Below, piece after piece: positions 9,298-11,518 of a stretch of DNA of 12,504 nt. The translations under genes and the position numbers were made by a program. The first letter of the stretch is position 1. The number at the start of each line of letters is the position of its first letter. The notes beneath the pieces are model-generated. The model was not told where the DNA came from and ran no database searches. It saw only the letters and a program-made list of their open reading frames with translations. Origin of the DNA: Halovenus sp. Its GTDB lineage: Archaea > Halobacteriota > Halobacteria > Halobacteriales > Haloarculaceae. The stretch spans positions 1-12,504 of the forward strand of contig JAQCNG010000061.1 of assembly GCA_028275145.1 (NCBI GenBank). The letters are read 5' to 3'.

Positions 9298-10152
9298 TCA
9301 GTCGCCGACTTCGACCCCGGGCTCCTCGGCCCCGGCATCGATTGCACAGGTCGCCGAGTAGTCCACATCGTGGACGGACTCGATTGCCGGGTCCTGACCA
9401 CAGACGGGGCAGTCGTCCTGTTTTGGAATCTCGACGCGGTCGAACTCCATCTCGAGGGCATCGAAAAACAGCATCGACCCGTCGAGAGACTCGCCGGCTT
9501 CGATAACGTGTTTCACCGTCTCGGTCGCCTGGAGACTCCCGACTGTGCCGGGGAGCACACCGAGGACACCCGCAGTGGCGCAGTTCGGGACCATCCCCGC
9601 CGGTGGTGCCTCGGGAAAGAGACACCGGTAACAGGGCGAGTCGTCGTCACCGGCGAAGGTGGTCACCTGCCCCTCGAACTTGAAAATAGAGCCGTGTGAG
9701 AACGGGATACCGGCGAGCGTACAGGCGTCGTTGACCAGGTACCGCGTCGCGAAGTTGTCGGTTCCGTCGACGACAAAATCGTACTCCGAGATCAGGTCGT
9801 CGATGTTGTCCTCGTCGACCCGTGTTTCGTGTCTGTTCACGTCGATGTCGGGGTTGAGATTCGCCACGAACTCCGCGGCGGAGTCCACCTTCTTCCGGCC
9901 GACATCGTCGTCCCCGTGGAGTATCTGCCGCTGAAGATTCGAGAGTTCGACGACGTCGTCGTCGGCGATGCCGAGCGTGCCGACACCCGCGGCCGCGAGA
10001 TACTGGATGACGGGGGAGCCGAGCCCACCCGCCCCGAGAACGAGAATCTCCGTATCGAGCAGTGACCTCTGTCCCTCCGGACCGACGTTGTCCATTCTGA
10101 TGTGTCGCGAGTATCTGTCGAGCTGTGTCGCGTCGAGGTCGAGACCACTCAT
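9298..10152 (-). CDS. ubaA: E1-like ubiquitin-activating enzyme UbaA (MoeB/ThiF/HesA family)
   Basis: This 284-residue enzyme should adenylate the C-terminal glycine of small archaeal modifier proteins (SAMPs), which serve in protein conjugation, tRNA thiolation and molybdopterin synthesis. Evidence: the nucleotide-binding GAGGLGS (about 40-46) of the Rossmann fold, N-L-Q-R-Q (72-76) with the catalytic arginine, D-G-T-D-N (129-133), and the zinc site formed by Cys174/Cys177 and Cys248/Cys251. The catalytic cysteine is probably Cys191 in VPNCATAG. There is no C-terminal rhodanese domain, so sulfur relay would need a partner. The acidic tail after residue 265 is slightly longer than I expect. 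ATG 10152 has TTATAC (minus strand) centred 25 nt upstream and no ribosome site, so it is probably leaderless. Haloarchaea usually carry one such gene for all these roles. A ThiF-only role is less likely. Confidence 0.9.
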   Translation of the reverse strand: MSGLDLDATQLDRYSRHIRMDNVGPEGQRSLLDTEILVLGAGGLGSPVIQYLAAAGVGTLGIADDDVVELSNLQRQILHGDDDVGRKKVDSAAEFVANLNPDIDVNRHETRVDEDNIDDLISEYDFVVDGTDNFATRYLVNDACTLAGIPFSHGSIFKFEGQVTTFAGDDDSPCYRCLFPEAPPAGMVPNCATAGVLGVLPGTVGSLQATETVKHVIEAGESLDGSMLFFDALEMEFDRVEIPKQDDCPVCGQDPAIESVHDVDYSATCAIDAGAEEPGVEVGD

Positions 10153-10155
10153 ACG

Positions 10156-10181
10156 TATAAAAGGAGTCTTTGCTGTATAAC
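10156..10181. promoter_or_regulatory. Divergent TATA motifs: ubaA (-) and a plus-strand transcript (+)
   Basis: On the minus strand TTATAC (10175-10180) sits 25 nt before the ubaA ATG and is its likely TATA box. On the plus strand TATAAAAGG (10156-10164) is a near-ideal archaeal TATA box that would start transcription near 10186. TATAAC (10176-10181) would start near 10204, where the first hairpin of the following array begins. No plus-strand protein gene follows, which points to an RNA product. Confidence 0.45.
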
Positions 10182-10185
10182 ACCG

Positions 10186-10530
10186 ACGCTCCGGAGAAAT
10201 ACTGCCGTTACCGCCGGAGTGAGACTCTACGGCTCTCTAGGGTGGGTCACGCGCCGGGGTGTTGGATGCTCCCCGCACTCCCATCGCTGGCCGGTGTCAC
10301 ACGCGCCATCGGTGCGTGGTGTCGGTCGACAGTCCGGCCGTGAACTCACCTCGAGGTCAAGTGGTTCGAGAGAGTTCGTCTCTCGTCAGCTGCTCGCGGG
10401 CATCGCCCGCTCGCAGGTTCGTTGGACCTTGTCCAACGTTCATCACGGAGGAGTCCCTCTTCCAAACGACCCCGGGGCAGTCGTCCTGTACCGCCTGTAC
10501 AAGTATCGCCTGCTGGGACAGTGGTCCTGC
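10186..10530 (+). ncRNA. Candidate structured RNA: array of tandem hairpins
   Basis: This gap between ubaA and the permease holds no convincing coding frame but many stems. GCCGT/ACGGC (10204-10233) encloses GGAGT-GAG-ACTCT (10216-10228). GGCCGG/CCGGCC plus TGTC/GACA (10289-10339) encloses an 8-bp stem with loop ATC (10300-10318). CGGGG/CCCCG lies at 10255-10275. CGAGAGA/TCTCTCG (10367-10385) has a 5-nt loop. GCGGGC-ATC-GCCCGC lies at 10396-10410, CGTTGGAC-CTT-GTCCAACG at 10420-10438 and GGAGGAG-TCC-CTCTTCC at 10447-10463. Weaker stems lie at 10487-10501 and 10516-10527. Several stems contain G.T pairs that are stable only in a plus-strand RNA. The conserved cores of SRP RNA and RNase P RNA are absent. 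Ends are approximate and no T-rich terminator is visible. Alternatives are a decayed mobile element or a 3' untranslated region of the permease transcript. Confidence 0.4.
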
Positions 10531-10537
10531 CCGAGCG

Positions 10538-11518
10538 CTACCGTACCGACGAGGTCGGCTCGTCGGAACTCTGCTGGCCACCGCGGCCGGAGTTTCGGAC
10601 CGTCGCGGCGATGCTTCTGCTCCCGATGAGGAGAAAGCCGCTCAGCACAACGGCGAACCCAACGAGCGTCACCGCCGAGAGCGCCTCTCCGAGCAACAGC
10701 CACCCCCCGAGTGTCGAAACAATCGGGATGAGGTAGAACACCAGATTCGCACGGGTCGCGCCGGCCGTGTCGATCAGCGCGAAGTAGGCGAGATAGGCGA
10801 CTGCGCCCGAGAACACGCCGACGTAGACGAGCGCGGCGACTGCTGTCGGCGTGACAGAGACACTGGCGACGGACTCGCCCGCGCCCAGACTCAGCAGATG
10901 CGAGAGAACGGCGGCGAGCGGGACCCCCCAGACCGTTCGGGCCGTGCTCGAAAGCGTCGTATCGGCCCACCTGATGGCGACGGCACCGAACGCGCTCGCA
11001 ACTGCCCCGGCAGACAGGATGGCAATCCCGGACGCACTAACGCCCCCACCGGACGGGTTCGCGACGAGAACGACACCGGCGAGACCAAGCGCCATACCGA
11101 CCCCGGCCCGGACGGAGAACCGCTCGTCCGTGAGCAACACAGCGGCAAAGACCGGCGTCAGTATCGGGTTCAGACTGAACACGATGGCGGCCACGCCGCT
11201 CGTGGTGTACTGCTGGCCGACGAACAGGAACACGTTCGTGAAGCCGATGACGAGCAGGCCCGTGGCGGCGATTCCGACCACGTCGCCAACTGTTCGGGGC
11301 CTGAGGTCGCTCCGGGACATCGACACGGCGGCGTACGAGGCGAGTACGACCGCACCGATATCGAACCGAATCGCGACGAACAACAGTGGGGGCAGGTACG
11401 CGAGCCCGGCTTTCGCCGCGACGAAGGTGCCACCGAACAACACGGCGGCGGTCAGGAACAGCGCCAGCGTTCGCTGAACACCCACTCTATCGGCCCTCGC
11501 GGCGATATCGGCGGTCAC
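10538..11518 (-). CDS. DMT-superfamily permease, EamA family
   Basis: This 326-residue membrane protein has ten predicted helices in two EamA repeats (about 17-154 and 164-298), the layout of drug/metabolite exporters such as RhaT/YdcZ-type carriers. Family marks include A-A-V-L-F-G-G-T-F-V-A-A-K in helix 1, N-P-I-L-T-P-V-F-A-A-V-L-L near the end of the first repeat, and N-L-V-F-Y-L-I-P-I-V-S near the end of the second. The C-terminus after residue 300 is hydrophilic (Ser/Gln/Arg/Asp). The longest start is GTG 11518, since an in-frame stop lies upstream at about 11543; AGGA about 10 nt before it may be a weak ribosome site. A later GTG 11 codons in (codon 12, just before the first helix) is also possible. 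Substrate is unknown; amino acids, nucleosides or drugs are all exported by relatives. The divergent neighbour encodes a regulator that may control it. Confidence 0.88.
   Translation of the reverse strand: MTADIAARADRVGVQRTLALFLTAAVLFGGTFVAAKAGLAYLPPLLFVAIRFDIGAVVLASYAAVSMSRSDLRPRTVGDVVGIAATGLLVIGFTNVFLFVGQQYTTSGVAAIVFSLNPILTPVFAAVLLTDERFSVRAGVGMALGLAGVVLVANPSGGGVSASGIAILSAGAVASAFGAVAIRWADTTLSSTARTVWGVPLAAVLSHLLSLGAGESVASVSVTPTAVAALVYVGVFSGAVAYLAYFALIDTAGATRANLVFYLIPIVSTLGGWLLLGEALSAVTLVGFAVVLSGFLLIGSRSIAATVRNSGRGGQQSSDEPTSSVR

Follow-up and report, generated by a model that had tools for sequence, protein, structure and literature searches.

The window considered here is the whole 12,504-nucleotide stretch of contig JAQCNG010000061.1 from Halovenus sp. 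(assembly GCA_028275145.1). In this window, a gene for an EamA-type permease (10538..11518, minus strand; PF00892) is followed in the same direction by ubaA (9298..10152, minus strand), which encodes the SAMP-activating E1 enzyme and matches NF047750 above its cut-off. Between the two genes lies a gene-less, PATE-like element of 157 bp (10340..10496, minus strand), which is oriented as both of them, toward which the permease gene reads, and whose limits were obtained from an alignment of its dispersed copies. On the minus strand, the element begins at 10496 just after a target-like 5-mer, TGTAC, that adjoins its left end (10497..10501), and it closes at 10340 with the right-end terminal 5-mer TTCAC (10340..10344). 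Its left-end tail, which extends from the outer stem to the target (10478..10496), is common to the left ends of two complete TnpB transposons, L037 and L197.

The boundaries were read from 40 aligned rows, consisting of the window and 39 copies from four genomes and including left ends of longer elements; TNYAC occupies the left-end boundary in 28 of these rows, and TTCAC the right-end boundary in 22. The window element has no terminal inverted repeats, its ends reading AGGCGGTACA... and ...GAGTTCAC on the element strand, and no target duplication, with TGTAC on one flank and GGCCG on the other. In this it differs from a MITE, which would carry terminal inverted repeats related to a transposon.

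Hairpins and covariation

The region had previously been described, in an initial annotation made from the letters alone, as a dense and improbable array of tandem hairpins spanning 10186-10566 and as a candidate for a new structured RNA of the plus strand. The stems at 10367-10385, 10396-10410, 10420-10438, and 10447-10463 are confirmed both by reading the letters and by script, and the density holds for the element itself: 10340-10496 contains three perfect stems of at least 6 bp with loops of 3-5 nt, a number reached by 1 of 1000 dinucleotide shuffles, and five stems under the same criteria when G.T pairs are allowed, which none of 1000 dinucleotide shuffles reach. In contrast, 10186-10339 is no better than chance, with no perfect stem and two stems with wobble, the latter attained by 459 of 1000 shuffles; the stems at 10216-10228 and 10300-10318 can be found in the letters but do not rise above chance, and the supposed 10-bp stem at 10289-10339 actually consists of 6 bp and 4 bp separated by a 2-nt bulge. 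The 8-bp stem at 10546-10566 is likewise present, but it falls inside the permease reading frame, and the orthologue of genome G003 has lost the inner half of this stem. Fold z-scores are -4.19 (plus strand) and -3.50 (minus strand) for 10340-10473, -4.60 for the minus strand of 10353-10473, and -2.62 (plus) and -3.57 (minus) for the whole of 10186-10566, while 10186-10330 behaves like shuffled sequence, with -0.16 on the plus strand and +0.98 on the minus strand.

The folded part of the element is organized as an outer stem (10349..10358 with 10468..10477) and the hairpins that it encloses. In the window copy, the outer stem contains one A.C mismatch, and 90.4% of its cells are paired across 37 copies. 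HP1 (10367..10385; 7 bp in the window) and HP2 (10445..10465; 7 bp at 10447-10463, including one G.T) are, respectively, the right-end-side and left-end-side hairpins of a two-hairpin block, whereas the four-hairpin class has two extra hairpins: HPa (10390..10416), composed of 6 bp at 10396-10410 inside a 4-bp stem (10390-10393/10413-10416), and HPc (10420..10438), composed of 8 bp with a 3-nt loop and flanked by HP1-like letters. Across the same 37 copies, the proportion of paired cells is 95.2% for HP1, 97.1% for HPa, 91.4% for HPc, and 87.3% for HP2, with two-sided changes in 3/8, 2/10, 3/8, and 5/9 of their pairs, respectively.

These values were counted on an alignment of 37 rows (A1), in which L057, L064, and L078 of the 40 rows were omitted, using a structure drawn by hand from the sequence. 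Overall, 92.3% of 1610 cells are paired, and 15 of 45 pairs, distributed across all five helices, show two-sided changes. The two-sided cells number 55, compared with 7-17 when the partners are slid and 12.5 on average after shuffling, a covariation that is strong but does not amount to a probability, because the rows share ancestry and were themselves used to draw the structure. RNAalifold alone proposed 27 pairs, 9 of them with two-sided changes, and recovered HP1 together with parts of HP2 and HPc; in the register used, it yielded neither HPa nor the outer stem. Among the 164 non-Watson-Crick cells, there are 40 G.T, 37 A.C (in the plus reading), and 87 others. If selection acted on a single RNA strand, one of the first two types would be expected to predominate, so their near equality gives no sign of such selection, and the earlier claim that G.T pairs point to a plus-strand RNA is not supported, neither strand being favoured. 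The mismatches fit single-stranded-DNA hairpins used by a transposase, or the mutational correction of palindromes, at least as well.

Template switching between the arms of imperfect palindromes can correct them by mutation. If this process generated the covariation, no selection on structure would be needed, and the element would be a passive remnant, an explanation in keeping with the strand symmetry of the mismatches and with two-sided changes that often occur in blocks, for example arms GAGAGA/TCTCTC versus GAGAAT/ATTCTC. However, TnpB transposons whose reading frames are intact retain the same block at their ends, and 38 of the 43 genera in the order sample contain related blocks, so that palindrome correction is considered unlikely to account for the pattern.

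A plus-strand gene for a new structured RNA, with its start near 10186, could likewise draw on the covariation, on the favourable plus-strand fold of 10340-10473, and on the lack of an Rfam family, since the Rfam search gave no match at gathering score within the window; three matches in 10100-10650, all below that score, look like chance. Against it, the left half of the proposed RNA folds ordinarily, and the TATA motif TATAAAAGG at 10156-10164, which had been put forward as its promoter, is absent from the one orthologue checked (G015), which retains the minus-strand TTATACAG in front of ubaA. In addition, the wobble cells lack a plus-strand bias, the element is a dispersed repeat, and in boundaries, ends, and relatives it corresponds to a transposon of the opposite strand. 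This candidate was rejected and is regarded as extremely improbable. Hairpins alone are no demonstration of a new RNA gene. What persists of the original proposal is a non-coding structured element with real covariation: the core of the structure was right, and its extent, strand, and nature were wrong.

As a separate observation on ubaA, genome G015 (L093, L095) contains a second, partial ubaA match about 3.6 kb off, and the same conserved upstream promoter stretch is found at both; the second match is either a duplication or an assembly artefact.

Dispersed copies and parent TnpB transposons

A DNA search of the own genome with 10150-10566 as the query returned 16 matches, comprising the window and 15 others, all of which map within 10314-10502 of the query. 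In the first genome sample, 25 of 40 genomes, including the own genome, contained a match, and a search of the named genome collection for an exact 26-base piece of HPa located it in 16 stretches, nine in Halovenus sp. LUM.45 and seven in the halophilic archaeon J07HX64. A covariance model (R1) built from the 37 copies detected related blocks in 46 of 57 genomes and 21 of 22 genera of the family, and in 76 of 99 genomes of the order sample, the own genome being included in both cases. The own genome gave 18 R1 matches (17 in the order-wide run, in which fewer candidates were scored), and seven among the 16 matches listed are of the four-hairpin type over the whole model. Many R1 matches have one of two sizes, about 160 bases with four hairpins or about 109 bases with two, the smaller class being without an insert of about 54 bases that holds HPa and HPc. 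The genome G032, from the same order, is unusually dense in such blocks, with 26 R1 matches in about 2.7 Mb, and those listed belong mostly to the 109-base class.

Not every aligned copy is a solo element. At least five (L059, L061, L063, L073, and L090) have internal left-end sequence in the right-end position and therefore appear to be left ends of longer elements, and L068 and L069 are probably of the same sort; in the surroundings of these seven copies, a complete tnpB is found only at L059, which corresponds to L197. At L012 1480-1660 (G018), a chain of hairpins is seen in which another two-hairpin block is inserted within the HP1 palindrome, recalling the small repeats that are said, in the available text of PMC3119063, to enter PATE palindromes in Haloquadratum.

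Full-length relatives of the block were found as TnpB transposons. L037, in the own genome, is a 1581-bp element that encodes an intact TnpB (PF01385 and PF07282; NF040570, the RNA-guided TnpB subfamily) and carries the two-hairpin block as a direct copy at either end, and TnpB proteins of the L037 kind (66% and 89% identical) are also encoded, in two other genomes, by L195 and L196, each of which has blocks at both ends. L197, from archaeon J07HX64, is a 1582-bp IS1341-type element whose tnpB shares 89% identity with the L037 gene over 410 residues and whose left end is formed by the four-hairpin block, with 86% identity to the window across 152 bases. The target of L197 is also TGTAC, and its right end, which is without the hairpin block, reads GACCCCGGGGTGAGTTCAC compared with GACCTCGAGGTGAGTTCAC in the window. 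In the window copy, the four-hairpin block is directly contiguous with the left-end tail on one side and with the right-end tail on the other.

Two further features of these transposons were observed. The last codons of tnpB traverse the right-end hairpin block in L037 (block at 1012-1116, tnpB end at 1029), and the same is seen at the TnpB C-termini of L195 and L196, so that the block serves both for coding and as a transposon end. In L197, a 39-residue MazE/AbrB-like frame (PF04014; 2370-2489) separates the left end from tnpB, and a similar frame precedes tnpB in L037; this frame is possibly a small regulator carried by the element.

The stretch 10340-10496 is accordingly one among many dispersed copies, with ends that match complete TnpB transposons, a 5-nt target-like motif adjoining it in unduplicated form, and hairpins that covary. 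It is very probably a non-autonomous transposable element of the IS200/IS605 superfamily, that is, a PATE on the minus strand, and there is high confidence that it consists of two ends of an IS1341-type TnpB transposon, the left and the right, fused without the tnpB gene. With 157 bp, it is too short for transposase coding; it has palindromes near its termini, and its ends are held in common with IS605-type transposons (L037 and L197). At both ends it matches L037 and L197, which stand for the haloarchaeal IS1341-type (tnpB-only) transposons of the IS200/IS605 superfamily, but unlike them it is without tnpB. It is a well-formed mobile element of a known kind, belonging to a four-hairpin family. 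A match to a decayed transposon had been named in advance as an outcome that would refute a structured RNA, and the result comes near to this, although the element is a recurrent end-only derivative and no one-off wreck. An apparent orphan RNA is thereby recast as a mobile element, and the analysis also provides L197 as a full-length parent transposon, a likely placement of the boundaries, and a covariance model that detects related blocks in most genomes of the order sample.

Mobility and comparison with known PATEs

In the IS200/IS605 superfamily, TnpA binds the end hairpins of one strand and cuts beside short end motifs, and the element moves as single-stranded DNA; gene-less copies can use TnpA supplied in trans. 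By analogy, a Y1 transposase (TnpA) acting in trans would recognise the end hairpins of the window copy, with putative cuts next to TNYAC and after TTCAC, and the element would then move as single-stranded DNA. The own genome contains 13 TnpB-domain matches and two Y1-transposase matches. As for its origin, the element may have arisen through loss of the core between repeated end blocks, a proposal that follows the scheme given for Haloquadratum PATEs in the available part of PMC3119063 and would suit the two size classes.

The sites of individual copies were compared among relatives. For copy L002, both flanking genes were located in three of six relatives, of which two have a shorter spacer from which the block is absent (197 versus 296 bases in G015, and 68 versus 302 in G004), and the third, G002, has a longer spacer of 643 bases without a block match. 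This comparison would fit mobility, although a letter-exact empty site was not found: when it was sought through the flanks of L002 and L004, none could be aligned, and the far side of L004 was unmatched in the relatives. For the site in the window itself, the relatives examined contain no orthologue.

The closest described counterparts are the PATEs of Haloquadratum walsbyi (Dyall-Smith et al. 2011, PMC3119063). According to the portions of that article used here, these elements, like the one in the window, are gene-less, have near-terminal palindromes, and are without terminal inverted repeats or target duplication; their ends resemble IS605-type transposons, and they are end-only derivatives formed via core deletion. 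An unduplicated short target adjoining the left end is also the general anatomy of IS200/IS605 elements, as is commonly known and as the same portions describe. The window element differs in its joined block of four hairpins and in its genus, a difference judged by comparing descriptions alone. Two other elements are of related make-up. The PATE of the Halorubrum virus HRTV-DL1, of 489 bp, is of the same kind by its authors' name, and the sections consulted of PMC10544981 report strong transcription from one end, which shows that expression of a PATE is possible; a search of the phage collection with the window element gave no hit at E 0.01. In Halanaerobium hydrogeniformans, a bacterium, a single-copy PATE-like element of about 271 nt that keeps the last 58 nt of tnpB is described in part of PMC7290912, and it resembles the window element in having IS605 ends and no transposase gene. 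No description of the four-hairpin family was found in the literature searched, which included the accessible text of PMC3119063, PMC12558985, PMC10544981, and PMC7290912, and the literature search found no paper on transposon repeats of Halovenus.

Transcription context of the copies

In another reading, a PATE copy would additionally act as a stand-alone, omega-like guide RNA for a TnpB made elsewhere. Read-through from the permease gene would give a minus-strand RNA in which the hairpin block would serve as the TnpB-binding scaffold and the flank past TTCAC as the guide, and TnpB acting in trans might cut element-free alleles, leading to the retention of many gene-less copies. The available text of PMC12558985 reports that Halobacterium produces omega RNAs at tnpB ends, and, as in the haloarchaeal omega RNAs (sotRNAs) described there, the right-end block of the window element lies at the position of the omega RNA end and is followed by a flank that is a possible guide; the right end and flank of such a location are kept, with tnpB absent. 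The permease reads into the element, and the strong one-end transcription of the viral PATE (PMC10544981, in the sections cited above) is a further point in favour.

A tendency in the same direction was seen in an exploratory count at 41 loci (40 copies from seven genomes and the window), made with a crude caller based on G+C by codon position and mixing solo copies with left ends of longer elements: the gene on the left-end side is directed into the element at 26 loci and away from it at 11, with no call at 4 (p 0.020), and tandem gene pairs run with rather than against the element orientation by 13 to 4 (p 0.049). The right-end side, however, is unbiased, with 21 genes directed away, 18 towards, and 2 without a call (p 0.75), and these gene calls are crude and the bias exploratory. 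Several features also speak against a guide RNA. Unlike the omega RNAs in the text seen of PMC12558985, the window element is without the tnpB-derived upstream part, and the pairing conservation specific to one RNA strand that would be expected of such an RNA was not found, the wobble cells being free of strand bias. L197 itself has no hairpins at its right end. Moreover, the 20-base flank has no second target in the own genome under three mismatches; when up to three were allowed for this putative guide, five further places were found, all with three mismatches, compared with one for the reversed control. An additional role as a guide RNA is therefore judged quite improbable for a PATE copy. 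If the copies are transcribed, they could be used to test whether gene-less IS200/IS605 derivatives employ TnpB guides in trans.

An unrelated peculiarity emerged from the same gene calls: at six of the 41 loci (L231, L237, L239, L242, L250, and L255), the TGA stop of a convergent gene falls, according to the crude caller, inside the right-end GTGAA, as if this motif of the element supplied the stop codon of the neighbouring gene.
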